A stretch of DNA of 64,000 bases from Typha latifolia (lineage: Eukaryota > Streptophyta > Magnoliopsida > Poales > Typhaceae), in NCBI GenBank assembly GCA_019914945.1, contig CM034100.1, positions 10,241,096 to 10,305,095 on the forward strand. Reading direction: 5' to 3'. The position numbers and the translations under genes were made by a program. Below the pieces are notes generated by a model. That model had not been told where the DNA came from. It did no database searches and saw only the letters and a program-made list of their open reading frames with translations. This document shows positions 959 through 52,927 of this stretch, one piece after another (the first letter of the stretch is position 1; every line of letters starts with the position of its first letter).

Positions 959-1934
959 TGAAAAAACCCTAAACACAACTATGTATCTAAATACTAGGCA
1001 ATGATATCACTCGTTCGCTTAAGTAAAAGTCCGTAGAAATATTAAAAATGAAAACAAAGATGAACGCCAAGATTTTAACGTGGAAAATCCCAAACGGGAA
1101 AAAAATCACGGATCCAAAGTCAGATCAAAACCAATCACTAGAATAGTAGCAGTTACAAGACTGACTCACAAAACAACCTGTCGATTCAAACGACTTTGCT
1201 CTTCTCAGTCTTGCTCGGTAGAACCCACGATTCACTGCTTCTCGTGATTGAAGTCTATCCTCAGTAACCCTCGAGATTGATCTTTCGTCTAGATAACTCT
1301 TAAGACGAAAGATTAACTTTTTAATGATGAGTGGAACCTTATTAGTTGAAGAACTAATGTAGCCTCAATAAGTCTCCTTCAATAATGCTTCTTCAACCAC
1401 CCTCAAGATAGGGCATCACAATCCTTATATATGATCTCCAAGATAGAGCCAAATCCAAGTCTTATCTGTACTCACGAAAGTCCAATTTTATCAAACTTCG
1501 TTGCTGTGTTCGAATGCGACCCGGGTGCGTTTGAACGGAATGACTTGAACTCAGGTGCGTTTGAACGGGCCCGAGTGCGTTCGAACGCGACAACTTGAAT
1601 TCTTCAGGTTGCATTCGAACACGTTTGTGAACGCAGCTCTCTGTCTATGTGAACGCAGTGCCCACGTTCGAACGCGTTTGTGAACTCGGCTCTTTGTTTG
1701 TGTGAACGCAGTGCCCGCGTTCGAACGCGTTTGTGAATGTGGCTCTCTGTCTGTGTGAACGCAGCTTTCGCATTTGAATGCGTTTGTGAACGCGGTGTGA
1801 ACTCGACGGCTTTTCTCCAATAATCTTGCAATTCTTCAAACCAGAGATATTCTAGACTTGTGTAAAGCTCATATACATGAAAAAATACACTTATAATATT
1901 TTGTACACAATTGCCAACAAATAAAAACCTAACA
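959..1934 (-). repeat. 3' LTR of the nested S element
   Basis: This 976-bp LTR reads TGTTAGGTTTTTATTTG at its start (1934) and ends in CA at 959 on the minus strand. It has the family layout: A/T-rich leader, tandem units with GCGTTCACAAACGCGTTCGAACGC-like content (about 1550-1800), a TATATAAGG box (minus strand, near 1420-1430), then a leader. The tandem array is shorter than in the solo LTR at 43021. Confidence 0.88.
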
Positions 1935-3339: not shown

Positions 3340-4888
3340 TCTTGAGAAAGAAACAAGATGCAAGTTCAAACATGCCTAAAGCAACCAAAAAAATAGCAAG
3401 AAATCCAAAAAAAAAAATTCAAGAAACCATGAAGGCCCTAAATGAAATCAATCTTTCACTTGAAAACGCTAAGATATCACATTCAATCACACAAGAAACA
3501 TCAAGATAGTAACTTTAACGTGATCAAAACTCGAAAACACACGAAATCAATCAAGATCAAAAGACTTAATTGAATAAAAAATTGGAAAATTGATGGATGA
3601 TCATACTTTGAAAGAGTGAAGAAAAACTCAGAAATTCGGCCGAAAGACGCTAGATCCAGAGGAGTACTACCCTCTAAAAGGGTTTGTAGTGAGAAATTTG
3701 ATGAAAAATACCAAGATCTTGAAGATTTGAGAGGGAGAAAATGAAGGGTTTCTAGGGTTTGGAAGATGGAAGATGAAAACCCTTGGGTTCGGACGCAATA
3801 TATAAAGAATCCTCGAGTGCGTTCGAACGCACCAGTCTGCGCGTTCGAACGCGCCAGTCACCGCGTTCGAACTCAAAAATTTGCGTTCGAATGCCCTTTT
3901 TTTTTAAGTAAAAAATCTAAGAAAAAATCAAAAAATCTTTTTGGAGATGCACCTCTAAAAATCCAAAATAGATTCAAGACATAGAATATGACAACCGAAT
4001 GAAATAAGTCCTACACAGATCAATCAAATCATCAAAAGCATATTATAATCAATTCTAATGCATCACTCAAAAATAAATTAATCTTGATTGATCATAACAA
4101 TATACATATGCAAGGTGAGCATAGATAACATGAAACATTCTTCTTAAATAAACTTTCCTATTTAAACAATGATACAACATAGTAGTCAAACCGACTTAGT
4201 ATTTAAATTTGCACTTTTCGACTTATTCTCCATAACCGAATAGGAATTTTTCCTGTATTATTTATTTTTATATATTAACCATATAGGAGCAATGATGGCT
4301 TTCACACATGAGTAGGTAGCCCTTTTCTTATAGTACATATCAAACAATGTGCAAGAAGATATTCACAAACATCAAAAAACATTTATTTAATTTGCAAGTA
4401 ATGTACTGAGTCAAACTGGACTCTAAACAAGATGGTTTTCACACAAACTCATTGTAGCCTATTTCATTGATCTTTTATGAACACATTTGTGATGACTAAG
4501 CATGAGGTCAAACTGTGCAAATCAACGTCAATAGTGAGCTATTTTAAAAAAATATTCATGATGTCATGCTCACTCAAGAATATACACATTATGAGTGCAT
4601 TAATTTCAGTATAACTATCATATAAGTCGAGAGAGTGAATAAATTAGAAATGATACAATATACTACAAGATGACAAAATTGACTATAATAACTCATAATC
4701 AAGAGAAAAATCATATTTATATGTCAAGAGTATATTATTGAATCTAAGAGTGCATCAAATTTTTTTTTATATGACAAAAACTCTCGACAAATCTGAAACT
4801 AAAACCAAAGAAAATTTCAGAGAAAAGAAAACCTAAAAAGAAACGAAAAGAAATAATAAAAATAAAACATGCAAACAAACACGCAAAC
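3340..4888 (-). other. S-element spacer between pol and envelope-like ORF (no gene)
   Basis: Noncoding A/T-rich sequence, the inverted counterpart of 7744-8863. It contains one stretch of GTTCGAAC-rich sequence (about 3810-3895) that is absent from the plus-strand copy, so a piece of an LTR-like module seems to have been gained here or lost there. Confidence 0.7.
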
Positions 4889-5271
4889 CAATGTTGCGTT
4901 CGACCGCGTTTGTGAATGCGGCTCTCTATTTGTGTGAACGCAGTACCCGCGTTCGAACGCGTTTGTGAGCAAGGCTCTCTGTCTGTGTGAACGTAATGCC
5001 CGCGTTCGAACACGTTTGTGAACGCAGCTCTCTGTCTGTATGAACGCAGTGCCCGCGTTCGAACGCATTTGTGAACGCGGCTCTCTGTCTATGTGAACGC
5101 AGATTCCGCGTTCGAACGCGTTTGTGAACGCGGTGTGAACTCGACGGCTTTTCTCCAATAATCTTGCAATTCTTCAAACCAGAGATATTCTAGACTTGTG
5201 TAAAGCTCATATACATGAAAAAATACACTTAGAATATTTTGTACACAATTGCCAACAAAAAAAACCTAACA
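4889..5271 (-). repeat. 5' LTR stub of the nested S element
   Basis: On the minus strand this starts TGTTAGGTTTTTTTTG at 5271 and runs through several tandem GTTCGAAC units, then stops near 4889, where sequence homologous to the region just after pol begins. The TATA box and 3' half of the LTR are lost together with the primer-binding site, gag and pol, in a single junction inside the tandem array. Confidence 0.82.
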
Positions 5272-6760: not shown

Positions 6761-7527
6761 CCTAAAAATGTGAAGGAAGCATTGTTAGACGATTCTTGGG
6801 TTAATGCTATGCATGAGGAATTAGAGCAATTTTCTAGGAATGGTGTTTGGTATTTAGTTCCTAGACCTAAGAATGTGAACGCCATTGGAATAAAATTGTA
6901 AGAATAAAAGTGATGAACATGGCAATATAGTTCGAAATAAAGCTAGACTCGTAGCACAGGGATATACTCAGGTTGAGGGTATAGATTTTGATGAGACATT
7001 TGCTCCTGTTGCTAGATTAGAATCTATTCGTATACTGCTTGCTATTGCTTGTCACCTAAAATTTAAATTGTTTCAAAGGATGTGAAAAGTGCTTTCTTGA
7101 ATGGTACTCTGAATGAAGATGTTTATGTAAAACAACCGAAAGGGTTTGAAGATCAAAATTTTCCTTCTCATGTGTTTAAACTGAAAAAAGCCCTCTATGG
7201 ACTAAAACAAGCTCCAAGAGCTTGGTATGAGAAGTTGACCACTTTTTTAGTGGATGCGGGGTTCACTCGAGGGGGAGTGGACAAGACATTGTTCATTAGA
7301 CGGTCAAACAAGAGTTTAGTTGTGGCACAAATTTATGTGGATGACATTGTCTTCGGGGCAATGAGTGGATCATTAGCTAAGGAGTTTGCAGATCTTATGC
7401 ATAGTCATTTTGAGATGAGCATGATGGGTGAGTTGAAGTTCTTTTTGGGACTTCAAATTACTCAGTTGGAAAGAGGGATATTTATCGATCAAATCAAGTA
7501 TGCTAAGGATCATTTTGTGACACCATG
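6761..7527 (+). pseudogene. pol: Copia pol: reverse transcriptase
   Basis: Recognised blocks are the WYLVPRP lead-in, [26 protein letters not shown] (near 6940-7015), the [13 protein letters not shown] block (near 7195-7230) and the catalytic YVDD at 7334-7345. The frame shifts near 6899 and again near 7080. Order and motif spelling are those of Ty1/copia rather than gypsy. The RNase H that should follow is mostly missing. Confidence 0.88.
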
Positions 7528-8863: not shown

Positions 8864-9937
8864 ATGCCTAAAAAAGCTACAGTTTCCAAGAAACCTAGGC
8901 CGCCTTCCTCACCTACTTCGGCTCCCAAGTTTTCAACATCTACGGCTGCGGGGCGTTACAAACATAATTTTGGCACCCATCCTGTTATCTGTGAACGACC
9001 CGTGGTCATTTTCGATTTTTCTTCTTTGGGGATAGAATAGATATTTACTGAGCGAGGATGGTTATCGGTGTGTGGGATGAGTGGGACTGCTTATGTAGAA
9101 TTTGTTTGGAAATGTTTTTGTAATGCTACGGTTTTAGAACGCTGTATTTGTTCTACTGTTTGTGGTGTGTCTGTATACTTGGACTCAGATGTTATTCACG
9201 CTGAACTTCATCTTCCTGATGGTGAGTTCCAGTACCCCACGTCTGCTCCACTTCCTAATGTTGATGAATATGCTGGCACTATACTGATCAAAGGGGAACA
9301 TTGGAAGGGAAACATGATGCCGCATGCGAAACTGACACCAGTGGCTCGCATGCTTCACCTATTTTGTCTGTACAACGTCACCCCCAAGACTCGACATTCC
9401 AGTATTAGTCTGGATCATGCATTCCTTCTTCATGCAATGTTATCTGGAGTCTCGGTTGATTTGGCTGCGGTGATCTATGATTCGATACTCATAGCTGCAC
9501 AGAAAGAAGCACCTCGTGAGGGGTTACCGTTTCGCATCTTCCTTGCAAATTTGTGCACTCAGAGTGGGGTGCGTGTGGATGCTTTGGAATTACACTTAAG
9601 CGTGTGGATGCTTTGCAAATTTACTTCGCACAAATCGTTGGATCGAATTACACTTAAGCGGAGTTAAGCTCACGACCAGTTGTCTCCTCTCAAGCCGTCC
9701 GCTTCCGTCGCTGGTCGCTCATCGCACCTCGACAGTTCTGATGATAGCTCTGATGGTGACACATCTCACTCTAAGGGGGACTTACCACAGTACTCTGACC
9801 ATTTTGATCAGCTTAGTACTCAAGTGCAGGATCTCCATTCGGCCGTGAATGATTTACGAGCTAAGCAAGCTCGTCAAGGGACTATCCTTGACTCTGTGTT
9901 GACGATTCTTCAGCGTCAGTTTCCTCTGAGTTCCTAG
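8864..9937 (+). pseudogene. Envelope-like / 'putative plant transposon protein' ORF, outer copy
   Basis: I start it at 8864 (MPKKATVSKK) because the sister copy at 3339 shares this opening. The order is: basic Pro/Ser-rich N-terminus, ERGWLSVC block (near 9050), a central domain with KLTPVARMLHLF and AFLLHAMLSGVSVD (near 9320-9450), LPFRIFLANLCT (near 9528-9560), a Ser/Asp linker, and a coiled coil with heptads at about 9800-9920. In-frame stops lie at 9038 and 9665; otherwise the frame is maintained throughout. A short tandem duplication near 9580-9655 precedes the second stop. The fold resembles the plant transposon domain family; its biochemical role is not known. Confidence 0.75.
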
Positions 9938-10294: not shown

Positions 10295-11126
10295 TGTTAG
10301 GTTTTTATTTGTTGGCAATTGTGTACAAAATATTCTAACTGTATTTTTTCATGTATATGAGCTTTACACAAGTCTAGAATATCTCTGGTTTGAAGAATTG
10401 CAAGATTATTGAAGAAAAGCCGTCGAGTTCACACCGCGTTCACAAACGCGTTCGAACACGGATACTTTGTTCACATAAACAGAGAGCTGCGTTCACAAAC
10501 GCATTCGAACGCAGGTACTGCGTTCCCACAGACAGAGAGCCGCGTTCACAAACGCGTTCAAACGCGGGTACTGCGTTCACACAGACCGAGAGCTGCGTTC
10601 ACAAACGCGTTCGAATGCAATGTGAAGAATTCAAGTTGTCGCGTTCGAATGCACTCGGGCCCGTTCGAACGCACCTGAGTTCAAGTCATGTCGTTCGAAC
10701 GCACCCGGGCCGCATTCGAACGCACCAACGAAATTTGATAAAATTGGACTTTCATGAGTACGGATAAGACTTGGATTTGGCTCTATCTTGGAGATCATAT
10801 ATAAGGATTGTGATGCCCTATCTTGAGGTTGGTTGAAGAAGCATTATTGAAGGAGACTTCTTGAGGCTACATCTGTTCTTCAACTATCAAGGTTCCACTC
10901 ATCATTAAAAAGTTAATCTTTCATCTTAAGAGTTATCTAGACGAAAGATCAATCTCGAGAGTTACTGAGGTTGGACTTCAATCACGAGAAGCAGTGAATC
11001 GTGGGTTCTAGCGAGCAAAACTGAGAAGAACAAAGTCGTTTGGATCGACGGGTTGTTTTGTGAGTCAGTCTTGTAACTGCTATTATTCTAGTGATTGGTT
11101 TTGATCTGAGTTTGGATCCGTGGTTT
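10295..11126 (+). repeat. 3' LTR of the outer S element, truncated
   Basis: It begins TGTTAGGTTTTTATTTG right after the polypurine tract and follows the solo S LTRs up to GGATCCGTGGTTT. There it breaks off at 11126 into the terminal bases of a G1 LTR. About 200 bp of normal S LTR end are lost, including the terminal TTTTTTCA, so the right-hand target duplication of the outer element is not recoverable. Confidence 0.87.
10437..10806 (+). promoter_or_regulatory. S LTR promoter: GTTCGAAC tandem array and TATA box
   Basis: Four tandem units of about 52-54 bp, each holding GTTCACAAACGC and a GTTCGAACGC-type palindrome, run from 10437 to about 10620. More palindromes extend to about 10725, then a TATATAAGG box lies at 10797-10805. 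The arrangement (array, 60-70 bp gap, TATA) recurs in the other S LTRs. A promoter role is inferred from position, not shown. Confidence 0.6.
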
Positions 11127-11347
11127 TGATCGTATCAAGCTGGTATCAGAGCTCCTTAGTTGTGTGCGGCGTGGTCGATTTGATCAAATCAGGCTTCCAA
11201 TGGAAGTGGTGGGCCTAAATCAGGTTTGATTGGCCCTAAATAGGCTGACTTTCCCTTCCTATTTGTGAATAGGTCCCATTTGGCTTGGTGCAGTAGTGTG
11301 AGTCTGGCCTAGTCTCGATCAAGCTCTATTCATTTCATGCCCTGATG
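11127..11347 (+). other. G1 LTR terminus, PBS-like motif and unassigned leader
   Basis: The first 11 bases (TGATCGTATCA) are the end of a G1 LTR and TGGTATCAGAGCT follows at 11140, the primer-binding site of a lost element. The remaining bases to 11342 match nothing else I can see in the window and have no ORF of note; they may be a retroelement 5' leader. TGATG at 11343-11347 is the target duplication of the next element. Confidence 0.6.
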
Positions 11348-12343
11348 TGATATGATTCGGACTTCACCGACGTCGTCTCGAGCATGGATTCACTTTAGGA
11401 GTGTTTTTATTTCATGTTTTAGTGTTTAATTTCCATTAAAATAAGTTTCCTATAAGTCGCGTTCGAACGCGGGTGGACTGAGTTCGAACGCGGTTTGTGA
11501 ACGGGGTTGTGAACGTGGTGAAGAGAATGTACTGTGCGTTCGAACGCGGTGTGTTCGAACGCACTGTGAACGCCTGCATCGCGTTCGCAAATACCGACAG
11601 GCGCGTTCGATTGCGCGTTCGAACGCCTGCATCGCGTTCGCAAATCCAGAAGAGCGAACTTGGTGCGTTCGAATGCGGTCGGGCGAGTTCGAACGCGGTC
11701 GACGAAAATTGTGTTTTTTAGGGTTAATTTGAGTTGTTGGTTAGCCTATAAAAGGATGTGGTAGGCAACCAAATTGATTATTGATTATTGAGATTGAGTT
11801 TTGCCTTGCCTCCTTCGTCTTCTTCGCTCCCGTTCTCTCAATCCCCGTCGACGCCGCTTCTAACCTCCCTCGTCCGGCTAATCACCCTAGTCCCTTAGGG
11901 GTGGCCCTCTTCTTCCCCTTCGTCCAATCTATCCCACACTTGCCCTAATCCTTCCATCAACGACAACCCTTCCACCATCACTTTTCACCGGTGCCACCAC
12001 ATTAACGCCGGTCCTCCATCAACCATCAGTACCTAGGATCTTGTGCCTCCATCCACGAATCCAAAACAGAGCATCCTGATGTTCGTCCACTAAACGGACG
12101 GTATCTCGAGATCCACAACTCCGATTCGTCTGAAACTTGATTTGTTGGAAAGCTCTTTTCTAGGGCTACAATATATAAAAATTTCACATCGATCCAACGG
12201 CGGAATATTTCGGGATCTTATTTCACATTTCCATGCCAGATCTAGTCCAGATCAAGAATTGGAAGAGATCGACCCTTTATCAAAAATGCGTGATCGTATC
12301 AAGCTGGTATCAGAGCTCCATAGCCAGAGGCATGATCGTATCA
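11348..12343 (+). repeat. 5' LTR of the RT-less G1 element
   Basis: This 996-bp LTR has a leader, the GTTCGAACGC-rich block (11459-11700), a TATA box at 11747, a long pyrimidine-rich transcribed part, and an end that contains a primer-binding-site-like motif (12305-12317) before the terminal GATCGTATCA. The 3' end is fixed by comparison with the 3' LTR and its target duplication. Confidence 0.92.
11459..11754 (+). promoter_or_regulatory. G1 LTR promoter: palindrome block and TATAAAAG box
   Basis: Several GTTCGAACGC motifs, some forming the full 12-bp palindrome GCGTTCGAACGC, alternate with GTTCGCAAATMCMGA motifs between 11459 and 11700. TATAAAAG follows at 11747-11754. The same order appears at 15876-16161 in the 3' LTR. 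I infer this is the promoter-proximal control region. Confidence 0.6.
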
Positions 12344-12384: not shown

Positions 12385-14070
12385 ATGACGACAACCAGAT
12401 CGATGGCTGCACGGCGAGATGACGAAGAAGAGATTCTCCCAATAGAGGAGGGAGAAACGATTACAGGGACTTCCACCCGTGGAACCGCCTGATCTAATCA
12501 GAATATGGAAGAACCTAGCGTTCAAGATGTGTTGGGGTCTCTTTCAGAGCAAATGGCCATCAACAACCAGATGATGATGGAGATGATGCGGGAACTACGG
12601 GCGACAAGGGAAGCAATGACAAACGGGAAAGCACCATCGACCCCACGACGCGAGTCCACCCCCTTGAACCCACCGCCACCGATTCAGCCTTTGCAACCAC
12701 AAGAGCCGCTGCTACCACCACCCTTTGGGCAGAGGTAAGAAAGGATGGTTACACCTGGTCTAGTTGCAGGTGAACCCATCCGACGGGTGAACCACTATGG
12801 AGACCGCCTTGGAGATCAAGATCCGTGGGCGGGTCAATACGATCCGGAACCACGACAAGTTAATCAAAATCGAAGGAGGGATCATCAACCCTTCATGGTG
12901 CATCCTCCCCCGGTTAGACAAGGACATGATCTGGAATGAGACAATGGCATTCGTGGACAAGTCGTGCGTCTCTAATTCCCCAAGTTCAAAGGTGGCGACC
13001 CGATCGATTGGTTGTATAGGGCGGAGCAATTCTTTGCATACCAAGGAACGGCGGAAGAGTACAAGGTGACGCTTGTGAGCTTCCACCTTGAGGATGCGGC
13101 GCTTCATTGGTTTCGAGCAGCCAATGCCACTAAGGCTATCGAAACTTGAGCTGAATTTTGCGCCGATATCACACGGCGATTTAGAGCATCGGGATATGAA
13201 GACTTTGATGCTCTCCTCTCAAAGGCAGTGCAAAAGACCATGGTTGGGTCATACCAAGAAGAATTTGAGAGGATTAGTAGCCGATGTCATCCACCATGGA
13301 CGGATCAGCAACTTCGCAGCACCTTCATCTCCGGGCTGCGGGGTGACATACAAGCCGATGTGAGGGCTTTAAGGCCTAGAACCTTAAAGGAGGCCTTCGA
13401 AGATGCGGTGCTTATGGAAGACAAACATAGGGCCATGAAGATACACCTGAAGCAGAGTTGGATAAGCCAAGGAAGCCGCAATCAAGCTCAACCAAACATA
13501 GCGGCGGGAAATACTATCGGAGTACCAAGGGTTGCTGCTACAGTGGTAACTCCTCGAGCACCCTTGAAGCCATCCCAAGATGTGAAGTATGCACCTAGAG
13601 GTCCGGGACGAGCACTCACACCAGCCCAAGTAGAACAAAGAAGAGCCAAGGACCTATGCTTCCGTTGCGATGAGAAGTTTGTACCCGGGCATCGCTGCGG
13701 TAAACTAATGGGATCGGTGATGCTAATCGATGGATTGGAGGAAGCGGAGGACGAGTTTGTAGCTGAAGGTGCAGATGTGGCTGGACATCAAGGAGAAGAA
13801 GTTGAGGAGCAACCCGTGGAGGACAGGATAGCCGAAATCTCCCTCCACGCCTATTCGGGGACAGCTACGCCAAAGACTTTGCGGGTGAACGGGGTAGTCA
13901 AGAAAACCACAGTGAGAATCTTGATTGACACCGGGTCCACCCACAACTTCATTGACAAGAGGCTCCTTAGGAACATTGGGCTCGAGTCGGAACCAACGGA
14001 AGGGTTCGATGTGACGATCGGGATGGCACCACATTGCGAGCAGATTATATTTGTGGAGGTGCGGAATTGA
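12385..14070 (+). pseudogene. gag: Gypsy gag and protease (RT-less G1 element)
   Basis: Starting at the ATG at 12385 (MTTTRSMAARR, shared by four copies), one reading frame runs to 14070. It holds an acidic N-terminus, a Pro/Gln-rich linker, the retrotransposon gag core (about 12975-13440), a CX2CX7HXC knuckle (CFRCDEKFVPGHRC, near 13660-13700) and the protease motif LIDTGSTHNFID near 13920-13960. In-frame stops at 12490, 12736, 12937, 12973 and 13147 break it; four of the five look like C-to-T or G-to-A changes compared with sister copies. A 2-bp loss near 14018 shifts the frame inside protease. Confidence 0.88.
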
Positions 14071-15737
14071 CGGTGCAAGGCCAAACTTTCACATTGGATC
14101 TTTATCCGTTGGCCTTGCAAGGTGCCGATATTGCTTTGGGGACCCAATGGCTTCGAAGCTTGGGGCCTGTGACATTTGATTTTACAAGCCTCACATTGAC
14201 GTTTTGGAGAAATGACAAGAGAGTGCTGCTAGATGGAAGCCAACCGCTACTTGAACTTCCAAATGAAGGGGTCGCAAGGGAGCTCGCTTCTTTCTCGGCG
14301 CCCACCTTTCCTTTCTTCTCAGATCTGCGGAGAGCTAGTGCAGAGGATAGTGAGCTGGTCCAACTCATGGAGGAGTTGAGAGAGAACCCCTCAAGCCACC
14401 CCAAGCACGAGGAGCGCGATGGGTTAGTACTAGAGTGCGGGCAAATCAAGGTACCCTGGAACGAAGAGCTACGGAGACTATTGATGGCACACTTCCATGA
14501 TACTCCTATAGCAGGGCATGAAGGGGTATTACGTACCTACAAGCGGCTGGCCCAAAACTGTATATGGACAGCAATGAAGACGGACGTGAAAAAGTATGTG
14601 CGTGAATGTCAAATCTGCCAACGAGTCAAATCAGAGGCACTCAAGCCTAGCGGGCTGCTACAACCACTACCTATACCAGAGCGTATTTGGGAGGATATCT
14701 CCATGGACTTCATCGAGGGGCTGCCAGAGGTTCGGGGATAATCGATGGTGCTTGTTGTGGTGGATAGACTGAGCAAATATGCTCATTTCATAACATTGTC
14801 TCACCCATTTTCAGCAAAAAGGGTTGCTGAAATTTTTGTTCGGGAAGTGGCACGCTTGCATGGGATGCCTAGGACGATCGTGTCAGACCGGGATTGCATC
14901 TTCATCAGTGAGTTTTGGACCGAGTTCTTCAGATTGCAAGGGACTCAAATCAACCTGAGTTTAGCTTATCACCCTGAGACGGATGGCCAAACCGAGGTGG
15001 TGAATCGCAGACTGGAGCAATACTTGCGATGCTTTGTGGCGGAACGACCAAAGGATTGGGTCAAATTCCTTCCATGGGCTGAGTGGTCATACAATACTGC
15101 TCATCACTCTAGCATCAGCATGACCCCCTTTGAGGCGGTTTATGGGCACACTCCCCCTGTCTTGCGTGCCTATGATAGACTCGCGGCGGCGGATAAGATC
15201 GAGCTTGACTTGGAGCTTGCTGATCGAGATGAAACATTGAGACTGCTCAAGACTCACCTAGCCACAGCCCAAAACCGCATGAAGCAAACTCATGACAAAG
15301 GCCGACGTGAGCGAGAATTTGAGGTGGATCAATTGGTGTTCGTTCGAGCTCAATCGTATCGACAATCCACATTGAGACCAATTTTGAACCAAAAGTTGGG
15401 TTACAAGTACTACGGTCCGTACCGAGTGCTACAATGAATCGGTCCCGTAGCTTAGCGGTTGGACCTACCTGAAGGAACCAGGATACATCCGGTCTTCCAT
15501 GTATCAGCATTGAAGGCTCAAATCGAGCCTAACCATGTGGTGGGTTCGGCCTTACCCGAACTAATGGAGGAGGATGGCCCCACTGAACCGGTCCGAGTAT
15601 TAGGCCGCAGGAGAAGATGCCATGGGATCAGATTAGAGACTGAAGTGCTAATTGAGTGGCTGGGCAAATCTACTGATGAGTCTACTTGGGAGCTAGACGC
15701 AGATATCATGGATCGCTTTCCAAACTTCAAACCTTGA
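14034..15737 (+). pseudogene. pol: Gypsy protease tail joined to integrase with chromodomain-like tail
   Basis: The frame opens in the protease tail (LGTQWLRSLGPVTFDF), then joins integrase leader at about 14280-14310. The zinc finger H...H...CQICQ lies at about 14487-14625. The core has Asp in SMDFIEGL, Asp in VSDRD and Glu in DGQTEVVNR with 35 residues between the last two, so the triad is intact. The tail (HPVFHVSALK; VLIEWLGKSTDESTWE near 15645-15700) resembles a chromodomain, which places the family with chromoviruses, perhaps near Reina. Stops at 14739, 15435 and near 15453 break the frame; the first two read as C-to-T changes from CAA and CGA in sister copies. Confidence 0.88.
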
Positions 15738-15764: not shown

Positions 15765-16750
15765 TGATATGATTCAGACTTCACCGACGTCGTCTCGAGC
15801 ATGGATTCACTTTAGGAGTGTTTTTATTTCATGTTTTAGTGTTTAATTTCCATTAAAATAAGTTTTCTGTAAGTCGCGTTCGAACGCGGTTTGTGAACGG
15901 GGTTGTGAACGTGGTGAAGAGAATGTACTGTGCGTTCGAACGCGGTGCGTTCGAACGCACTGTGAACGCCTGCATTGCGTTCGCAAATACCGATAGGCGC
16001 GTTCGATTGCGCGTTCGATTGCGCGTTCGAACGCCTGCATCGCGTTCGCAAATCCAGAAGAGCGAACTCGGTGCGTTCGAACGCAGTCGGGCGAGTTCAA
16101 ACGCGGTCGACGAAAATTGTGTTTTTAGGGTTAATTTGAGTTGTTGGTTAGCCTATAAAAGGATGTGGTAGGCAACCAAATTGATTATTGATTATTGAGA
16201 TTGAGTTTTGCCTTGCCTCCTTCGTCTTCTTCACTCCCGTTCTCTCAATCCCCGGCGACGCCGCTTCTAACCTCTCTCGTCCGGCTAATCACCCTAGTCC
16301 CTTAGGGGTGGCCCTCTTCTTCCCTTTTGTCCAATCTATCCCACACTTGCCCTAATCCTTCCATCAACCACACCCCTTCCACCATCACTTTTCACCGGTG
16401 CCACCACATTAACGCCAGTCCTCCATCAACCATCAGTACCTAGGATCTCGTGCCTCCATCCACGAATCCAAAACAGAGCATCCTGATGTTCGTCCACTAA
16501 ACGGACGGTATCTCGAGATCCACAACTCCGATTCGTCTGAAACTTGATTTGTTGGAAAGCTCTTTTCTAGGGCTACAATATATAAAAATTTCACATCGAT
16601 CCAACGGCGGAATATTTCGGGATCTTATTTCACATTTCCGTGCCAGATCTAGTCCAGATCAAGAATTGGAAGAGATCGACCCTTTATCAAAAATGCGTGA
16701 TCGTATCAAGCTGGTATCAGAGCTCCATAGCCAGAGGCATGATCGTATCA
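15765..16750 (+). repeat. 3' LTR of the RT-less G1 element
   Basis: This 986-bp LTR starts TGATATGATTC after the purine-rich GAAGCGTGGTAGA and ends GATCGTATCA, followed by TGATG. It lacks a 20-odd-base segment with one palindrome present in the 5' LTR and has one extra GCGTTCGATT. Its TATA box is at 16154. It contains the embedded PBS-like motif at 16712-16724, which shows that motif belongs to the LTR proper. Confidence 0.93.
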
Positions 16751-16755
16751 TGATG

Positions 16756-17332
16756 CACCTGTGTTGTTGCGGTTCATGATTTAGGTGCATAGTAAAACCG
16801 CTTCAATTTATATCAATTTCTATTTATGTTTTAGGAAAATAAAATAATTTTTGGAAGGTGCATTCAAACACGAAATTGATGGCGTTCAAACATGGTCGTT
16901 CGAATGCCTGATTCGCATTCGCATATACAGAGAATGCGTTTTAGCCATTCGAACGTCTGATCTCGCGTTCACACATACAAAGAACACGTTTTGGCCTTTC
17001 AAACTCGATTGGGCTGCATTCGAACGCAAGACGAGTAAGCTGAGTCATAATAGCATTTGTTTAAGGTTTTTCGATATTTGGCAAGCCTATATATATGGAA
17101 AAGCAGCCTTCGTAGATTATTGATTATTGAATATTGGAATTGGTTTTCATCTAAGGCCTAAGCCATCTTCTCCCTCCTCCTTCCTCCCCCTTGGTATCTA
17201 ACCCAAGTTCTAGTCTATGACCAAGATTAATCCTCTGTCGCTTATACCTCTTTTCTCTAACAACCAGCCATACTTGGAAGCTCCCTTCTCCCCCCCTCAT
17301 CTAGTTCTAAGGACAAATCCATCTACCATATG
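16756..17332 (+). repeat. Divergent LTR relic with GTTCGAAC motifs
   Basis: After an unassigned 40-bp stretch, this looks like an old LTR: Ttattttaggaaaataa leader, GTTCGAATGC/GTTCGAACGC and GCATATACAGAGAATGCG motifs (16850-17030), a TATATATGG box near 17088, and a pyrimidine-rich downstream part. It follows the layout of the G1 and G2 LTRs but differs in sequence from both, so it may be a further family. No coding sequence. Confidence 0.55.
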
Positions 17333-19089: not shown

Positions 19090-19138
19090 TGATACGATTC
19101 GGACTTCACCGACGTCGTCTCGAGTTTGGATTTACTTT

Positions 19139-22582: not shown

Positions 22583-23523
22583 TGATACGATCTTTTCTTT
22601 GGGGCTAAGGCTCTGATACCAGCTTGATACGATCTGGCACGGAACTTTGAAATTAGATCCCAAAATATGCTGTAGTCGGATCGATGTGAGATTTTGATAT
22701 GTTGTAGCCTCGTAAAAGAGCTTTCCAGAAAATCTAGTTTCAGGCGAATCGGAGTTGGGAATCTCGAGATATCGTTCGTTTAGTGGACGAACGTCAGGAT
22801 ACTCTGTTTTGGATCCGTGGATGGAGGCACGAGATCCTAGGTAATGATGGTTGGTGGAGGACCGGCGTTAATGTGGTGGCACCGGTGAAAAGTGATGGTG
22901 GAAGGGTTGTGGTTGATGGAAGGATTAGGGCAAGTGTGGGATAGATTGGACGAAGGGGGAGAAGAGGGCCACCCCTAAGGGACTAGGGTGATTAGCCGGA
23001 CGAGGGAGGTTAGAAGCGGCATCGCCGGGGATTGAGAGAACGGGAGCGAAGAAGATGAAGGAGGCAAGGCAAAACTCAATCTCAATAATCAATAATAATC
23101 TTGGTTGCCCTACACATCCTTTTATAGGCTAACCAACAACTCACATTAACCCTAAAACACAATTTTTGCCGACCGCGTTCGAACTCGCCCGACCGCGTTC
23201 GAACGCACCGAATTAGCTCTTCTGGATTTGCGAACGCGATGCAGGCGTTCGAACGCATGATCGAATGCGCCTGTCGGTATTTGCGAACGGGATGCAGGCG
23301 TTCACAGTGCGTTCGAACGCACTACGTTCGAACGCACAGTATATTCTCTTCTCCACGTTCACAACCCCGTTCACAAAGCGCGTTCGAACTCGCTCCACCC
23401 GCGTTCGAACGCGACTTACAGAAAACTTATTTTAATGGAAATTAAACACTAAAAAATGAAATAAAAACACTCCTAAAGTGAATCCATGCTCGAGACGACG
23501 TCGGTGAAGTCCGAATCGTATCA
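22583..23523 (-). repeat. 3' LTR of the gag-only G1 element
   Basis: This 941-bp LTR starts TGATACGATTC at 23523 (minus) and ends GATCGTATCA at 22583. It has the palindrome block at about 23165-23425, a TATAAAAGG box near 23125-23133 and the embedded PBS-like motif at 22609-22621. Preceding purines (GAAGCGTGGTGGAT, minus) mark the polypurine tract. Confidence 0.92.
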
Positions 23524-24999: not shown

Positions 25000-25920
25000 T
25001 GATACGATCTTCTCTTTGGGGCTAAGGCTCTGATACCAGCTTGATACGATCTGGCACGGAACTTTGAAATTAGATCCCAAAATATTCTGTCGTCGGATCG
25101 ACGTGAGATTTTGATATGTTGTAGCCTCGTAAAAGAGCTTTCCAGCAAATCTAGTTTCAGGCGAATCGGAGTTGGGAATCTCGAGATATCGTTCGTTTAG
25201 TGGACGAACGTCAGGATACTCTGTTTTGGATCCGTGGATGGAGGCACGAGATCCTAGGTAATGATGGTTGGTGGAGGACCGGCGTTAATGTAGTGGCACC
25301 GGTGAAAAGTGATGGTGGAAGGGTTGTGGTTGATGGAAGGATTAGGGCAAGTGTGGGATAGATTGGACGAAGGAGGAGAAGAGGGCCACCCCTAAGGGAC
25401 TAGGGTGATTAGCCGGACGAGGGAGGTTAGAAGCGGCGTCGCCGGGGATTGAGAGAACGGGAGCGAAGAAGACGAAGGAGGCAAGGCAAAACTCAATCTC
25501 AATAATCAATAATAATCTTGGTTGCCCTACACATCCTTTTATAGGCTAACCAACAACTCACATTAACCCTAAAACACAATTTTCGCCGACCGCGTTCGAA
25601 CGCACCGAATTAGCTCTTCTGGATTTGCGAACGCGATGCAGGCGTTCGAACGCGTGATCGAATGCGCCTGTCGGTATTTGCGAACGCGATGCAGGCGTTC
25701 ACAGTGCGTTTGAACGCACCACGTTCGAACGCACAGTACATTCTCTTCTCCACGTTCAGAACCCCGTTCACAAACCGCGTTCGAACTCACTCCACCCGCG
25801 TTCGAACGCGACTTACAGAAAACTTAGTTTAATGGAAATTAAACACTAAAACATGAAATAAAAACACTCCTAAAGTGAATCCATGCTCGAGACGTCATCA
25901 GTGAAGTCCGAATCGTATCA
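25000..25920 (-). repeat. 5' LTR of the gag-only G1 element
   Basis: This 921-bp LTR runs from TGATACGATTC at 25920 to GATCGTATCA at 25000 (minus). The working PBS is at 24984-24996 and an identical motif lies 42 bp inside the LTR at 25026-25038. It is very similar to the LTR at 22583, implying a fairly recent insertion. Confidence 0.92.
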
Positions 25921-28542: not shown

Positions 28543-28893
28543 GGTGGTAGGTTGGTGAAGAGGGAAGAGGGAGATTAGGTAGAGACAATAGAGAGAAGAT
28601 AGGAGGCAAGAAATCAATAATCCAATAGCATTATAATTTTGGCTGCCATCCACACCTTTATAGAGGCTAGCCAACAAGTCCTAAAAATAATAACTAACCC
28701 TAATCCTAGTGTAATCCCGCCGATTGCGTTCGAACGTACAAAAGACATTCTCTATATGTGAGAATGCGATGCAGGTGTTCGCAAGGGCATTCGAACGCGA
28801 CCCCTTCCGCGTTCGAATGCGACCTACAAAAATTTTATTTTAATAAAAATAAACAACTAATGCAATAAGAAAAGACCCTAACTAATTGTATCA
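28543..28893 (-). repeat. G2 LTR, 5' half (right of the Y insertion)
   Basis: On the minus strand it begins TGATACAATTAGTTAGGG at 28893 and includes GTTCGAAC/GTTCGCA motifs at about 28725-28830 and a TATAAAGGTGTGG box near 28650-28665. It ends at the Y insertion point. Confidence 0.85.
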
Positions 28894-33416: not shown

Positions 33417-36400
33417 TATAACGCCCCCGCCCGGCACGGGCATGTGCACGCCCACACGGCACGCGCGGCGCATGCGACAAGTCGGGTGGGGCCCGTCATG
33501 CACAAGATACTCTCTGTGCACATATAATCACAACATCATCAAATAAAACCTGCTAACCCATCCATGATCACATAATCCATCACTAGATAAATCATACTAT
33601 TAACCAAATAAACCTGTTAACATATGAATATCCCAATTCACAATAATATACATTAAACCACTACATAATCTCGCAGAACCCACACAGGCCACAACAAACC
33701 ATCAAGATACAACTAAACCAACTAATACAAGAGTACGCTATGATTCGACCTGTATCATACAGATCATCATCTAATATAAAATGAGTACAAATATCAAATA
33801 CTAGTACAACTCAATTTCTATATAAACTATCATCTATACCGTCTCACATCTATAGCTTACCTCATCTTTGCTCTAAAATATCTTATCAAGGTATCTCAAA
33901 GTGGTATCACGTATCATAATATCTGTGGGGGTTAAAAAGAAAGAAATAAAGAGAGTCATGAGCAAAAAGCTTAGTGAATAGACCTTATCCCGAATTAGTG
34001 ATGACAAACAGAGAGTAAATTATGTACTGGATAATATGAATCAGTAAGAGCATCATGTCATGAATGAGTATATGAATGTATCATCAATAATATATAAATG
34101 AAAAGTAGATAATATGTCGTAACTGATAAAAGTATATAATCCTCGACAATAAGAAAATAGATTTCCATGTTATACTATCATCACAACTCTCTCTCAAATA
34201 TGACACATGATGCATGCCGACCATGACTATGCTATGATATCAAATGCAACCATATATGATGCATATTGATTACTCGATAATCAGGTAACCAGATGATAAT
34301 GAAATCATATGCAATTCTCAACATCACAATCATCACCGACATCTCGGTATAATATCATCATACTAGACCACTATGCATAGTCAACTTCTGGGTACTCGAT
34401 CGAATATCATGTCCGAAGGCTTAGACAATATTCCGCGACCCGTAAGAGTATCTCAAATATAATCATACCCCACCACCTGCTAGGGTATCAACATCTATCT
34501 AGACCAGGTACCCATATAGTTGATAGAAACCTCGTGAGGATAACTCGCCACATATGCCTTGGCGAATAGCATGTATCCGATTGTCTGTGCGCACAGACTC
34601 AACTAACCTCGGACATGGGCTATAATCATCACTCCAAGCACCCCTAACCCTAGCGCCTACTCGGGTATCCTCACGCTTTCTATCAACTATCCTATCAATC
34701 ACATTTCATGCTTTCCTTCTAAATGCCAAATCACATGTATATATCCAGTACGATAATGAGTCAATGTATAAAATAAATTTAGGTGGTAAGGAAGTCAAGA
34801 GGAAAATAATGCAATGCAGTCTTTGACCATATATCTAACACATGCATACTCCTGCTAGCCCGTCACATGCACACTCATACTAGAAGATCGTCTTCATATA
34901 AAATCATAACAATATAATCATCTCTAATCATCTGTATTTATCATCATCATTTTCATATCCAAGATCAACCTAATTCTATGCATGATAAAAATATGCTTGA
35001 TTGTAATCATCTCTATTTAAAGTCATATAATCATGCTAGAGGTCGAAACATACATGTACATAATATATAATATAACCTAATTTGAGAAAGGTGTCTAGGA
35101 GATAAGACTACTCACACTTGATCAGAAGACGCAAACCACGTATCCCTCACATCCGCTTATCAACCGAGTGACACTCATCGCTAGCAAGATCCACGATATC
35201 TCAAATAAGGGGGTTGGGATTAGTAAGTTTTTATTTGTTGGGAATTGTGTACAAAATAGTCTAAGTGTATTTTTTCATGTATATGAGCTTTACACAAGTC
35301 TAGAATATCTCTCGTTTGAAGAATTGCAAGATTATTGGAGAAAAGCCATCGAGTTCACACCGCGTTCACAAACGCGTTCGAACGCGGGTATCTGCGTTCA
35401 CACAGACAGAGAGTCGCGTTCACAAACGCGTTCGAACGCGGGTATCTGCGTTCACACAGACAGAGAGCCGCGTTCACAAACGCATTCGAACGCGGGTACT
35501 GCGTTCACACAGATAGAGAGCCGCATTCACAAACGCATTCGAACGCGGGTATCTGCGTTCACACAGACAGAGAGCCGCGTTCACAAACGCGTTCGAACGC
35601 AGGTACTGCGTTCACACAGACCGAGAGCTGCGTTCACAAACGCGTTCGAACGCAACCTGAAGAATTCAAGTTGTCGCGTTCGAACGCACTCGGGCCCGTT
35701 CGAACGCACCTGAGTTCAAATCATACCGTTCGAACGCACCTAGGCCGCGTTCGAACGCACCAACGAAGTTTGGTAAAATTGGACTTTCGTGAGTACGGAT
35801 AAGACTTGGATTTGGCTCTATCTTGGAGATCATATATAAGGATTGTGAAACCCTATCTCTAGTGTGGTTGAAGAAGTATTATTGAAGGAGACTTCTTGAG
35901 GCTACATCGGTTCTTCAACTAACAAGGCTCTTCTCATCTACAAATCTTAATCTTTCATCTTAAGGGCTATCTAGACGAAAGATCAATCTCGAGGGTTACT
36001 GAGATTGGACTTCAATCACGGGAAGAGGTGAATCGTGGGTTCTAGCGAGCAAGACTGAGAGGAACAAAGTCGTTTGGTTCGACGGGTTGTTTTGAGAGTC
36101 AGTCTTGTAACTGCTACTATTCTAGTGATTGGTTTTGATCCGAGTTTGGATCCGTGGTTTATTCCCGTTTGGGTTTTTCCACGTTAAAATCTTGGCGTTC
36201 ATCTCTGCTTTCGATCTTAATATTTCTACGGACTTTTACTTAAGCGAACGAGTGATATCATTGCCTAGTATTTAGATACATATTTGTGTCTAGGGGTTTT
36301 TTCAGGGATCTGAAAATGTTTAAGTAATGTAAAATTAGTTATTTATCCAATTGGGATCCGTTTGTGTAACATATGATGATCTATTAGGTTTAAAATTTCT

Positions 36401-38886: not shown

Positions 38887-39883
38887 GCTTGATACGATCA
38901 CGCCTTTTTGGTAAAGATCGATCTTTTCTAATTCTTAGATCTGGACTCGATCTAGTACGGAACTTTGAAATAAGATCCCGAAATATTCCGCCGTCGGATC
39001 GACGTGCAATTTTGATATATTTTAGGCCCGGAAAAGAGATTTCCAACAAATCAAGTTTCAGGCGAATCGGAGTTGGGGATCTCGATATATCGTTCGTTTA
39101 GTGGATGAACGTCAGGATGCTATGTTTTGGATCCGTGGATGGAGGCATGAGATCCTAGGTAATGGTGGATGGTGGAGGACCGGCGTTAATGGGGTGGCAC
39201 CGGTGAAAAGTGATGGTGGAAGGGTTGTGGTTGATGGAAGGATTAGGGCAAGTGTTGAATAGATTGGACGAAGGGGGAGAAGAGGGCCACCCCTAAGGGA
39301 CTAGGGTGATTAGCCCGACGAGGGAGGTTAGAAGCGGCGTCGCCGGGGATTGAGAGAACGGGAGCGAAGAAGACAAAGGAGGCAAGGCAAAACTCAATCT
39401 CAATAATCAATAATAATCTTGGTTGTCCTACACATCCTTTTATAGGCTAACCAACAACCCACATTAACCCAAAAACACAATTTTCGCCGACCGCGTTCGA
39501 ACTCGCCCGACCGCGTTCGAACGCACCGAATTAGCTCTTCTGGATTTGCGAACGCGATGCAGGCGTTCGAACGCGTGATCGAACGCGCCTGTCGGTATTT
39601 GCGAACGCGATGCAGGCATTCATAGTGCGTTCGAATGCACCGCGTTCGAACGCATAGTACATTCTCTTCTCCACATTCACAACCCCGTTCACAAACCGCG
39701 TTCGAACTCACTGCACCCGCGTTCGAACTCACTCCACCCGCGTTCGAACTCACTCCACCCGCGTTCGAACGCGACTTACAGAAAACTTATTTTAATGGAA
39801 ATTAAACACTAAAACATGAAATAAAAACACTCCTAAAGTGAACCCATGCTCGAGACGACGTCGGTGAAGTCCGAATCGTATCA
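38806..39883 (-). repeat. G1 5' LTR, enlarged
   Basis: This 1078-bp LTR runs from TGATACGATTC at 39883 to GATCGTATCA at 38806 (minus). It is longer than its relatives because of extra 42-bp PBS units at one end and extra GTTCGAACTCACTSCACCC repeats near 39700-39770. The TATA box is near 39437-39445. Its 3' partner is not present. Confidence 0.86.
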
Positions 39884-40553: not shown

Positions 40554-43500
40554 TGTAACAACCCAACCTTAAAAAAAAAATTCTTTGCATGGTACTGTGG
40601 CCGGCCTCGTGCCGATGCAGTTGGGTAACATAAGGGGGCTGCCACGCAGCCCCTCGCATCGCCGCAGCCCCTTGGTTGCTGCCAGCTAGCCGCCGCGGGC
40701 CCCAGTGCCTCCACAGGCACCGCCAAGACCCTCCTCCTCCATCGCCTTCTCTCTCTCTCTCTCTCTCTCTCTCGGCCACCCTCTCACTCTACTCTCTCTC
40801 TATACCGACACCTTCCCTGGAGCCACCACCGCCACCGATGAGACCTCTCACTCCTCGTCTCTTTCCTTCTCTCTTTCTCTCTCTTTCTCTTTCTCTCTCT
40901 CTCTTTTTCTTGCTCGAGGTTGGGCTCGTCAGAGCCGAGCCACCGGCGAGAGGCCGGCCACTAGCTGGCCAGTAGCGACCGGTGCCCTCCTCGCTGGCCT
41001 GGGATCGCAACCTCCTCCCTCACCTCCTCTTTTTCTTCTCTTCCTCTTCTCTTCTTCGTCTTCTGCTTTCTTTCTTTCTTTCTTTCTTTTTCTCCTTCTT
41101 CCTCAGCTCCTTCTCGTTCTTTCTGCACAGTGTTGGGCTCAGCCCAACATTGATGGCAGATTTAATTTATTTATTAATTAATTATTTTATTTATGTTATT
41201 TATTTAGGTATTTTTCTTCTTAATTAATGCAAATAGATTATTTAGACATTAATTATTTTAATAATAATATATATTCTTCAATATGATTAGTATTAATTAT
41301 AATTTGTATCATCAATGATTTATTTGGTATAAATATTAGTAATACTCATATTTATTTATATCTCTATCAGATTAATATATATATTTGTAAATTATAATTA
41401 TCAAATTTATATACTAATATTTTTATGAGATACATTTTAAATAATTCTAATAATTTATTATACATTATTATTTTGTAGCAAATAAAATAATCGGCTTATG
41501 TATTTATTTATTATTTTATAAAGTAATGACTACGTAGTTCCTAATTAATCAAGATATAATTTAATTATAATTAGATTTTTATCTATATTTATATTTTTTT
41601 TTATAATTGAAACTCTAGCCAGTTATAAAGATAAGTAGAAATTCTAAAATCTAATAAATCATCATATTTTACGTGAACGGATTTTAATTAGATGAACGAC
41701 TAACTTCTTGCTACTTAAACATTTTCAGATCCCGAACCCCTTATTTGAGACTCCGTGGACCTTGCTAGCTATGAGTGTCATTCTCAAATTATGTTATATT
41801 ATATATTATGTATAAGCATATTTTGGCCTCCAATATGATTATACGACTTTATCTAGAAATGATTATAGTCGAGCATATTTTATCATGAATCGATTAGGTT
41901 GATCCTGGGATATGAGCACATTGGTGATATATAAAGATGATAAGAGATGATTATACTATTATAATGTTATGTCTAGTTGATATGTAGCATGAGTATGCAT
42001 GTAATTGATTAGCATGAGTACGCATGTGTTGACTACATGATCGGAGAATATATTCCATTATTTTTCTCTTGATTCCTATTCCACCTAAATTCATGTTATG
42101 CGTTGATTTATTATCGTACTGGATATATGCATATCATCTATCATTTAGAAGCAAAGCATGAAATGTGATTGATAGGATAGTTGATAGAAAGTGTGAGGAT
42201 ACTCGAGTGGGCGCGAGGGTCAGGACGCGCTTGGTGGATGATTAATTGCTTGACATAGTCGTGATCCTGTTGGCCTTACGTCCGAGGTCGTTAGTCTGTG
42301 TGCGCAGCAGACATTCGGACACATGCCATTCGTTAGGGCATATGTGGCGAGTTATCCTCACAAGATTTCTATCAGCTAGAAGGGTGCCCGGTCTGGATGG
42401 ATGTTGATACCCTTAACGAATGGCAGGGTATGGTTATATTTGAGATACTCCTTATGGATGACAGAGTATGCTCGAAGTCTTCGGGCATGATGTTGAGACC
42501 GGGTATCGGGTATTGACTGTGCACAGTGGTCTAGTATGATGATATTATACCGAGATTTTGGTGATGATTGTGATGTTGAGAAATTTATATGATTTCATTA
42601 TCATTTGGTTACCTGATTATCGAGTGATCAATATGCATCATATATGGTTGCATTTGATATCATAGCATGGTCATGGTTGGCATGCATCATGTGTCATATT
42701 TGAGAGAGAGTTATGATGATGGTATGACATGGAGATTTATTTATACATTATCGAGGATTATATATTTTACCAATTATGACATGACATGTTATCTATTTTT
42801 CATTTATGTATTATTGAGGAACATTCATATACTCATTCATGACATGATGCTGCTTTTTTTTATTCATATTATCCAGTACATGATTTACTCTCTGTTTGGC
42901 ATCACTGATTCGAGGTAAGGTCTATTCACTGAGCATTTTGCTCGTGACTCTCTTTATTTCTTTTCTAACCCGCTCAGATATGTGGTACGTGATAGCGACT
43001 TGAGATATCTTAGAAGATATTGTTAGTTTTGATTTGTTGGCAATTGACAAAATATTATAAGTGTATTTTTTCATGTATATGAGCTTTACACAAGTCTAGA
43101 ATATCTTTGGTTTGAAGAACTGCAAGATTATTGGAGAAAAGCCATCGAGTTTACACAAACGCGTTCGAACGCGGGTACTGCGTTCACACAGACAAAGAGC
43201 TGCGTTCACAAACGCGTTCGAACGTGGAATCTGCATTCACACGGACAGAGAGCCACGTTCACAAACGTGTTCGAACGCGAGTACTGCGTTCACACATACA
43301 GAGAGCCGCGTTCACAAACGCGTTCGAATGCGGAATCTGCGTTCACATGGACAGAGAGCCGCGTTCACAAACGCGTTCGAACGCGGGTACTGCGTTCACA
43401 CATACAGAGAGCCGCGTTCACAAACGCGTTCGAACGTGGGTACTGCGTTCACACAGACAGAGAGCCGTGTTCACAAACGCGTTCGAACGTGGGTACTGCG

Positions 43501-44686
43501 TTCACACAGACCGAGAGCTGCGTTCACAAACGTGTTCGAACGCAACCTGAAGAATTCAAGCTGTCGCGTTCGAACGCACTCGAGCCCGTTCGAACGCACC
43601 AACAAAGTTTAAGAATATTGGACTTTCGTGAGTACGGATAAGACTCGGATTTGGCTCTATCTTGAAGATCATGAGTATGGATAAGACTTAGATTTGGCTC
43701 TATCTTGTACTTTCGTGAGTACGGATAAGATTAGGATTTGGCTCTATCTTTTACTTTCATGAGTACGGATAAGACTTGGATTTGGCACTATATTGGAGGT
43801 CATATATAAGGATTTTGAAACCCTATCTCTAGGGTGGTTGAAGAAGCATTATTGATGGAGACTTCTTTAGGCTACATCGGTTCTTCAACTAACAAGGTTT
43901 CACTCATCTACAAGAATTTAATCTTTCGTCTTAAGGGCTATCTAGACGAAAGATCAATCTCGAGGGCTACCGAGATTGGACTTCAATCACAAGAAGCAGT
44001 GAATCGTGGGTTCTAGCGATCAAGACTGAGAGAAACAAAGTCGTTTGGATCGACGGGTTGTTTTGTGAGTCAGTCTTGTAACTGCTACTATTCTAGTGAT
44101 TGGTTTTGATCCAAGTTTGGATCTGTGGTTTTTTCCCATTTAGATTTTTCCACGTTAAAATCTTGGTGTTCATCTCTACTTTCGTCTTTAATGTTTCTTC
44201 CGACTTTTACTTAAGCGAACGAGCGAGATCATTGCCTAGTGTTTAGATACATACTTATGTCTAGGAGTTTTTTCAGATATTTTAGAGCGATGATTGGGTG
44301 AGCTATATATGCGAGACAGTATAGATGATAGTTTATATAGAAATTGAGTTGTACCATTATTTGATATTTCTACTCTTTTGTATTAGACGATGAATTATAT
44401 AATACAGGTTGAATCATAGAGTACTCTTATATTAGTCATTTTAGTTGTATCTTGATGGTTTATTGTGGCCTGTGTGGGTCCTGCGAAATTAGGTAGTGGT
44501 TTAATGTATATTATTGTGGACTGGAATATTCATATGTTAAGAGGTTTATTTGGTTAATAGTATGATTTATCTGGTGATGGATTTCGTGATCATGGATAGG
44601 TTAGCAGGTTTTATTTGATGATGTCATAATTATCTGTGTGTGACGGGCCCCGCCCGACTTGTCGCGTGCGCCGCGCGTTCACAAAT
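40554..44686 (+). mobile_element. Y unit (copy c), right end truncated, with an S solo LTR inside
   Basis: It starts TGTAACAACCCAACC at 40554 and follows copies b and d through CT-rich, A/T-rich and central parts to ACGGGCCCCGCCCGACTTG near 44660. It lacks the last GC-rich bases and is joined to a G1 LTR fragment. The 5 bases before it are GGAGG. A deletion near 41765-41780 removes part present in copy d. No pol or gag. Confidence 0.82.
43021..44275 (+). mobile_element. Solo LTR of S (Sirevirus-like), inside Y, with expanded repeats
   Basis: This 1255-bp LTR starts TGTTAGTTTTG and ends TTTTTTCA, flanked by GATAT (43016-43020, 44276-44280). It has eight 52-54 bp GTTCGAAC units (43155-43550). 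Just upstream of the TATATAAGG box (43803) it has four copies of a 42-45 bp unit containing GAGTACGGATAAGA (starts near 43630, 43672, 43717, 43761), where other S LTRs have one. Confidence 0.93.
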
Positions 44687-52500: not shown

Positions 52501-52927
52501 GATAGAGAGGCAAGAAACCAATAATCTAATAGGAGAGGCAAGAAACCAATAATCTAATAGGAGAGGCAAGAAACCAATAATCTAATAGGATAATGATTTT
52601 GGCTGCCATCTACACCTTTATAGAGGCTAGGCAACAAGCCAAAATAACAATTATTGATTCTAGAATATTCTCGCCAATCGCGTTCGAACATGCCCAATCA
52701 CACTCGAATGCACAAAAGGCATTCTCTGTTAGTAGGAACATGATACAGGTGTTTGAACACCATGTTTGAACGGGCCCGTCAATGTTTGAATGCGCATTTT
52801 ACGTTCTTTGTTTTTGCAAATCTGATGCAGGCGTTCACAAAGCCGTTCGAACGCCACATACAGGAAATTTATTTTAATGAAAATAAATAACTAACGCCAT
52901 AAGAGAAGACTCTAACTAAGTGCATCA
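52501..52927 (-). repeat. G2 LTR, 5' part, with three 28-bp repeats
   Basis: On the minus strand it starts TGATGCACTTAGTTAGAG at 52927 and covers the GTTCGAAC-type block (52680-52850) and the TATA region (near 52612-52625). It ends in three exact tandem 28-bp units (52506-52533, 52534-52561, 52562-52589). It is joined to gag sequence at about 52500. Confidence 0.82.

Follow-up and report, generated by a model that had tools for sequence, protein, structure and literature searches.

Why do the LTRs of unrelated retrotransposon superfamilies, Ty1/copia and Ty3/gypsy, carry the same palindromic module upstream of their TATA boxes? The window analysed here, a 64-kb stretch of Typha latifolia DNA at C2:10241096-10305095, is a nest of LTR retrotransposons, and the original prediction had placed such a module in the LTRs of a copia element, S, and of gypsy elements including G1 and G2. 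We found sites for the palindrome or its companion GTTCRCA-type motif in all eight stretches that had been named, and the excess over shuffled sequence was confirmed: palindrome A (GCGTTCGAACGC, at most two mismatches) matches 134 times in the window against 1.28 expected, a number reached by 0 of 100 shuffles, and forms 23 clusters of at least two palindromes; motif B (TTCRCAMAKACAGAGARC, at most three mismatches) matches 39 times against 0.05 expected. In the 214-Mb genome, exact GCGTTCGAACGC is present in 14,944 copies and its reversed control in none, and TTCRCAMAKACAGAGARC has 1,139 + 1,083 exact matches against 0 for its control. B is a real, separate motif. The sharing of the module between copia and gypsy LTRs is thus real, and a third lineage, T, can be added to it.

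Which elements carry the module? S is copia as predicted, with SH3_retrovirus before RVT_2 (coordinates of the features are collected in the table below). The PPT AGGGGGAG and the PBS junction are published Sirevirus marks (PMC2829016), and S has both. The PPT, which in Sireviruses stands in multiple copies before the 3′ LTR, is found at 9959, 9990, 10007 and 10285 in the window and four times (8140, 8325, 8386 and 8672) in a further S copy, L023, where the 5′ LTR/PBS junction with TATCAGAGC was also found (TTTTTCAATTGGTATCAGAGC near L023:1226; PBS ATTGGTATCAGAGC after the LTR end TTTTTCA). Published Sirevirus LTRs contain a many-copy palindromic motif (RM) before the TATA box, in CpG-dense sequence, and ENV-bearing members with RMs carry a further set ahead of the ENV-like gene (Bousios et al. 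2010, PMC2829016); S carries its palindromes in both places. Its putative ENV-like gene shows a Transposase_32 match, in an ORF sited where Sireviruses have ENV. The CGG-CCG core found in 12 of 13 published RMs is absent from GCGTTCGAACGC, but this core is not genus-defining because Tnd-1 is a published exception (PMC2829016). On these sequence marks, S classes as a Sirevirus.

The palindrome block upstream of the ENV-like gene is internal to S (~440 bp); a second copy lies at L023:6706-6781, and genome-wide the block matches at least 40 times, itself counted (best 40 of 724 candidates). The plus-strand S copy of the window is without it, between 8488 and 8493. One chance insertion of a gypsy LTR fragment into the S LTRs of these copies only had been named as a possible undoing of the prediction, and it is contradicted by a survey with a query lacking the module, in which 9/9 of the most similar further S LTR copies had the module (2,163 candidates, 40 scored, best 10 fetched, one of them the window's own).

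The gypsy assignment of G1 and G2 was likewise borne out, by a Ty3-type gag and a gypsy-type integrase end in G1 and, in G2, by RVT_1 (30872-31381, minus strand) before the integrase (29422-30444, minus strand), with the LTR after. A G1-type gag at 23727-24431 (minus strand) matches Retrotrans_gag and Ty3_capsid. In the pieces scanned, G1 yielded no RT and the gypsy elements yielded no chromodomain at E ≤ 0.001. One G1 element (11348 to about 16707) is flanked by TGATG on both sides, and its LTRs, compared as 15765-16750 and 11348-12343, are 94.6% identical. At 12302-12343, 22560-22610 and 38790-38899, the G1 LTR end and PBS are repeated in tandem (a 42-bp unit in 2.6 copies at 38790), so that some elements have two or three primer binding sites. 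An 18-bp tandem repeat of 5.1 copies (19136-19226) adjoins a fragment related to G1 LTRs.

The T family, which also has palindrome A, was met in sampled region L018. The pieces beside its LTR contain copia-type Retrotran_gag_2 and Pol_BBD, placing it in Ty1/copia, and the PPT before its LTR is AAGGTGGAGAA, unlike the Sirevirus AGGGGGAG; no RT of T was found in the four pieces scanned. By these features, T classes as copia but not Sirevirus. Each of the 8 T loci fetched has 8 to 12 palindromes, a tally that is not unbiased because the query included the module.

Table 1. Retrotransposon features and palindromic modules in the window (positions are those of the window).
Feature	Position	Strand	Details
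S LTR module	1506..1760	-	LTR about 959-1934
A block inside S	3785..3894	-	upstream of ENV-like gene
S LTR module	4896..5119	-	its LTR is truncated, about 4893-5271
S reverse transcriptase fragment (copia, RVT_2)	7067..7525	+	Pfam PF07727 2e-40
S ENV-like ORF region (Transposase_32 match)	9041..9664	+	Pfam PF20167 8.1e-27
S 3′ LTR, last ~145 bp missing	10295..11127	+	PPT AAAGGGGGAGAT then TGTTAGG; S similarity stops at 11127
S module	10437..10723	+	8 palindromes, 53-bp units with three motif B copies; TATA 74 bp downstream
G1 gypsy 5′ LTR module	11459..11696	+	LTR 11348-12311; CTATAAAAGG 49 bp downstream
G1 internal pieces: gag/protease, integrase H2C2, rve	13150..15434	+	Pfam; gag, rve below curated cut-off
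G1 gypsy 3′ LTR module	15876..16104	+	LTR 15765-about 16707
Gypsy-type module, decayed	16896..17027	+	with motif B
G1 LTR module	23175..23412	-	
G1 LTR module	25592..25809	-	
G2 gypsy LTR module	28726..28820	-	its RVT_1 + integrase 29422-31381
S LTR module	35374..35758	+	10 palindromes; solo LTR about 35221-36304, GGGAT both sides
G1 LTR module	39493..39772	-	10 palindromes
S LTR module	43161..43597	+	10 palindromes; 7.4 copies of 53-bp unit; solo LTR about 43021-44275, GATAT both sides
G1 LTR module	48463..48665	+	
G2-like LTR module, decayed	52680..52854	-	
G2-like LTR module	53655..53864	-	
G2 LTR module	59276..59439	+	motif B twice; RVT_1/RNaseH upstream at 56848-57618
G2-type LTR module	60789..60927	+	
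G1 LTR module	62098..62320	-	
G1 LTR module	63013..63235	-	

Could the palindromes be a functionless satellite, or a neutral tandem repeat, that lies in LTRs by chance? Tandem arrays do exist, with 53-bp units in S and 55-bp units in S2, and arrays of ~3.3 kb on small contigs include some A palindromes (16 of 50 listed period-26 pairs). On C29, C30 and C37 and at C12:3.69 Mb, 26-bp pairs return every ~3.3 kb, indicating a tandem array with the motif; at C1:13207712-13207810 there is an array of 13-bp tandem units based on GTTCGAACACCGC. However, of 20 10-kb regions sampled at preset positions on C1-C3, 13 were without any match to A, and thus A is not a dispersed satellite; the prediction's other counter-case, a genome-wide satellite equally common outside LTRs, does not describe this genome. 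One more region had a lone match, and the remaining six had 16 clusters of at least two A palindromes plus one lone palindrome. For most of these clusters (13/16), BLAST gives a match to S, G1, G2 or T that overlaps or adjoins the cluster; the one at L022:560 resembles another gypsy-type module of the same region, and BLAST assigned those at L011:5860 and L018:397 to none of the four. Placement before TATA boxes and a 20-21 bp pairing kept in several lineages despite differing spacers, both described next, also speak against a satellite, an explanation that we find barely credible.

Where do the clusters sit? We oriented 45 clusters by their own element (two unassigned ones by likeness) and found TATAWA within 140 bp downstream in 34/45, compared to 6/45 for the upstream side, with 13.9% expected per side. 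Of the 11 clusters with no downstream TATAWA, three have one on the upstream side. The distance from module to TATA is 74 bp in seven S-type LTRs, 47-49 bp in nine G1, 61-62 bp in seven G2-type LTRs (exceptions at 28, 56 and 82), 29-30 bp in two T and 13 bp at one ENV block, that of L023 (TATATA; the TATA pattern has no match at the window copy). Thus, the conserved position relative to TATA that had been claimed holds within families; between families it holds only as "upstream", the distances being different.

The palindromes are also paired. Neighbouring palindromes lie 20-22 bp apart in 16/16 module representatives, which we chose from the three lineages. Genome-wide, where periods of 16, 20, 21 and 26 bp were counted, GTTCGAAC forms 2,924 pairs at 20 bp and 2,025 at 21 bp, compared to 6 at 16 bp and 51 at 26 bp. 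The spacers within pairs vary by family (ACTCGGGC in S, GGTCGGGC in G1 and CATTGGGGC in T). At this spacing, the members of a pair would sit two helical turns apart. A helical phasing of all spacings was rejected: its significance was due to the 20-22 bp pairs alone, and 10.5-bp phasing of the other spacings gave p of about 0.14.

Is the palindrome itself under constraint? Between families, palindromes are kept better than module spacers (T2 to T1, 93% vs 76%; G1 to G2, 62% vs 44%), in a test that is biased in that palindromes were picked by motif likeness and also anchor the alignment. Within families the picture is mixed: palindromes match the spacers or do worse in T1, G1 and G2, but do better in G3 and G4, each represented by two copies. 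In some pairs, the LTR sequence flanking the module is as well kept as the palindromes (G1 to G3, 66% vs 63%). The difference between the between-family and within-family comparisons partly fits CpG decay after insertion together with constraint on active copies. Strong constraint on the core of A, as read from CpG decay, was rejected: in the window, outer CpGs changed 24 times and the central CpG twice, 6-fold per CpG, but genome-wide the figures are 9,295 for the two outer CpGs and 2,872 for the central one, just 1.6-fold per CpG.

What is the origin of the shared module? Deep descent from a copia-gypsy ancestor was rejected, as copia and gypsy modules do not align at length. When palindromes were masked, long alignments were obtained within S/S2, within T and between most gypsy families; between copia and gypsy, the aligned stretch covers only ~12 to 36 columns, located at B or C. 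We used 325 segments from module-free regions as a null for module similarity, palindromes again masked, and found that S exceeds the 95% null level against G1, G2, G2c and G3, but not against the other five gypsy modules, and S2 against four of nine, with ties for four. The scores of two comparisons exceed the null maximum: S2 with G2c (31; null maximum 29) and S with G1 (29; null maximum 25), and S and G1 share B and C in one pair, about 35 columns including a palindrome. None of the nine gypsy modules exceeded the 95% null level with T1, T2 or the ENV block (0/9), and palindrome A and the 20-22 bp pairing are all that T and the ENV block have in common with gypsy.

S and gypsy have two further short motifs in common, B and C. 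B (at most three mismatches) occurs in 13 of 15 LTR representatives; its 26 matches are all sense, and 23 follow a palindrome at a distance of 9-11 or 21-23 bp, in S-type and gypsy LTRs alike. At this threshold it was not found in T1 and T2. C (TTCRCAAR beside a palindrome) is sense in S (6 matches) and S2 (12) and antisense in five of ten gypsy representatives (G1, three G2-type and G3), and was not found in L003, T1, T2, the two ENV blocks or the other five gypsy representatives. Between S and gypsy, B therefore has the same orientation and C the opposite one. S and gypsy also both have a pair whose 8-bp spacer ends in TCGGGC, and T2 contains CAGACAGAGAGC, identical to S.

For S and gypsy, the main rival explanation is cassette exchange: an LTR promoter piece would have crossed from one to the other of the Sirevirus and gypsy elements sharing the genome, through template switching, recombination or gene conversion, and diverged afterwards except at binding sites. 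The presence of A, B and C in both S-type and gypsy LTRs, the fixed distances of B from the palindrome in both groups, the two scores above the null maximum and the shared TCGGGC spacer are all consistent with exchange, and the CAGACAGAGAGC of T2 and S is also explicable by transfer. Moreover, copia/gypsy junctions do occur: as a correction to the original prediction, the S LTR at 10295 is cut at 11127, and at 11127/11128 it gives way to a G1-type LTR end and PBS (TGATCGTATCAAGCTGGTATCAGAGCTCC, in 11100-11180). However, copia-gypsy alignments are short and within-group ones long, and five of nine gypsy modules stay at or below the 95% null level with S. The shared orientation of B and the opposite orientation of C point to piecemeal assembly, since one transferred block would give both the same way unless rearranged, and the limited likeness of T and the ENV block to gypsy fits a build-up somewhat better. 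Exchange or convergent amplification had been offered side by side; we consider exchange between S and gypsy possible but unlikely, and the sequences favour a piecemeal build-up of one protein's sites over the transfer of a single cassette.

Alternatively, the sites could form a silencing or anti-silencing code whose reader, encoded by a TE or by the host, imposes or removes DNA methylation in a VANC-like manner. VANC is a VANDAL-encoded protein that binds and demethylates its targets, which carry a short motif tandemly amplified in TE DNA (PMC5735166), and the Typha palindrome is likewise a short motif, tandemly amplified in noncoding TE DNA and, as we propose, read by one protein. The block is also CpG-dense, with observed/expected ratios of 1.84 and 1.97 vs 0.96 and 1.02 in the remaining LTR (one S and one G1 LTR). 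But VANC is the DNA transposons' own protein (PMC5735166), whereas here the sites lie in LTR promoters of unrelated superfamilies, for which a common TE-encoded reader of copia and gypsy would be odd, and they precede TATA boxes, the L023 ENV block included. We regard a methylation code as quite improbable.

What, then, would read the palindromes? Our preferred reading, to which we give a probability of roughly 0.6, is that the sites of the module, arrayed close to the promoter, are bound by one dimeric DNA-binding protein that drives several unrelated Typha LTR lineages. The palindrome pairs that the families have in common before the start signal suggest that they depend on one shared protein to switch on, and judged from the sites this protein would most likely be a host transcription activator. 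GCGTTCGAACGC could serve as a dimer site with its halves head to head, and because the pairs are spaced by 20-21 bp, the two dimers of a pair could share one helix face. Several such pairs near the promoter would raise LTR transcription from the elements' own TATA boxes and, in S, perhaps ENV transcription too, from an internal promoter. B on the sense strand and C beside the palindrome may be half-site-like additions in Sirevirus and gypsy LTRs. Tandem duplication, as in the 53-bp units of S, would multiply the sites, and the arrays would have originated separately, by local duplication and selection and not by transfer. TTYGAA presumably resembles the CHR site of CPP/LIN54. Identity with the heat-shock element was rejected by inspection.

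Parts of this picture are already published, namely the Sirevirus palindrome arrays before TATA and before ENV (PMC2829016) and the repeated gain of sites in COPIA families (PMC5059998). S resembles the published Sireviruses in its palindromes before TATA and ENV and in its PPTs and PBS. The authors of the 2010 study suggested a transcriptional role of this kind for the Sirevirus palindromes, left reader and function open, and described the motif as restricted to Sireviruses and absent from classic copia (PMC2829016). The Typha sequence differs from those RMs in being new and without the CGG-CCG core, and in occurring also in non-Sirevirus copia and in gypsy; in the available text of that paper we found no mention of a 20-21 bp pairing. 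In Brassicaceae COPIA, heat-responsive elements show how sites for one host factor, HSF, were gained repeatedly in several families, partly via duplication of a short precursor (PMC5059998). There, nGAAn units are arranged as nTTCnnGAAn, whereas TTC abuts GAA in GCGTTCGAACGC; moreover, the heat-responsive families named there are COPIA and the factor is known. Among the open-licence PMC matches listed, judged by title and start of abstract, none placed GCGTTCGAACGC in plant retrotransposons, GTTCGAAC with "retrotransposon" gave no LTR-motif paper, and no plant factor for TTCGAA emerged. In their available text, the Typha genome papers (PMC9210280, PMC12058305, PMC10230045) do not mention palindromes, and the MASiVEdb paper (PMC3414828) has a single, unrelated mention of a palindrome. 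Within this open-licence literature, as far as it could be seen, we found no report of one palindrome and pairing across Sirevirus, other copia and gypsy elements.

With a strict pairing rule and thousands of copies in a small genome, the palindrome pairs offer a bait for protein pull-down and a clear target for mutation. More tentatively, at somewhat less than even odds, the three lineages and the internal ENV promoter may have converged on a phased-pair code because they compete for the same regulator, supplied by the host or by a TE. If so, the Typha genome would hold a retrotransposon regulon, its TE lineages tuned to one factor able to switch on many families together.
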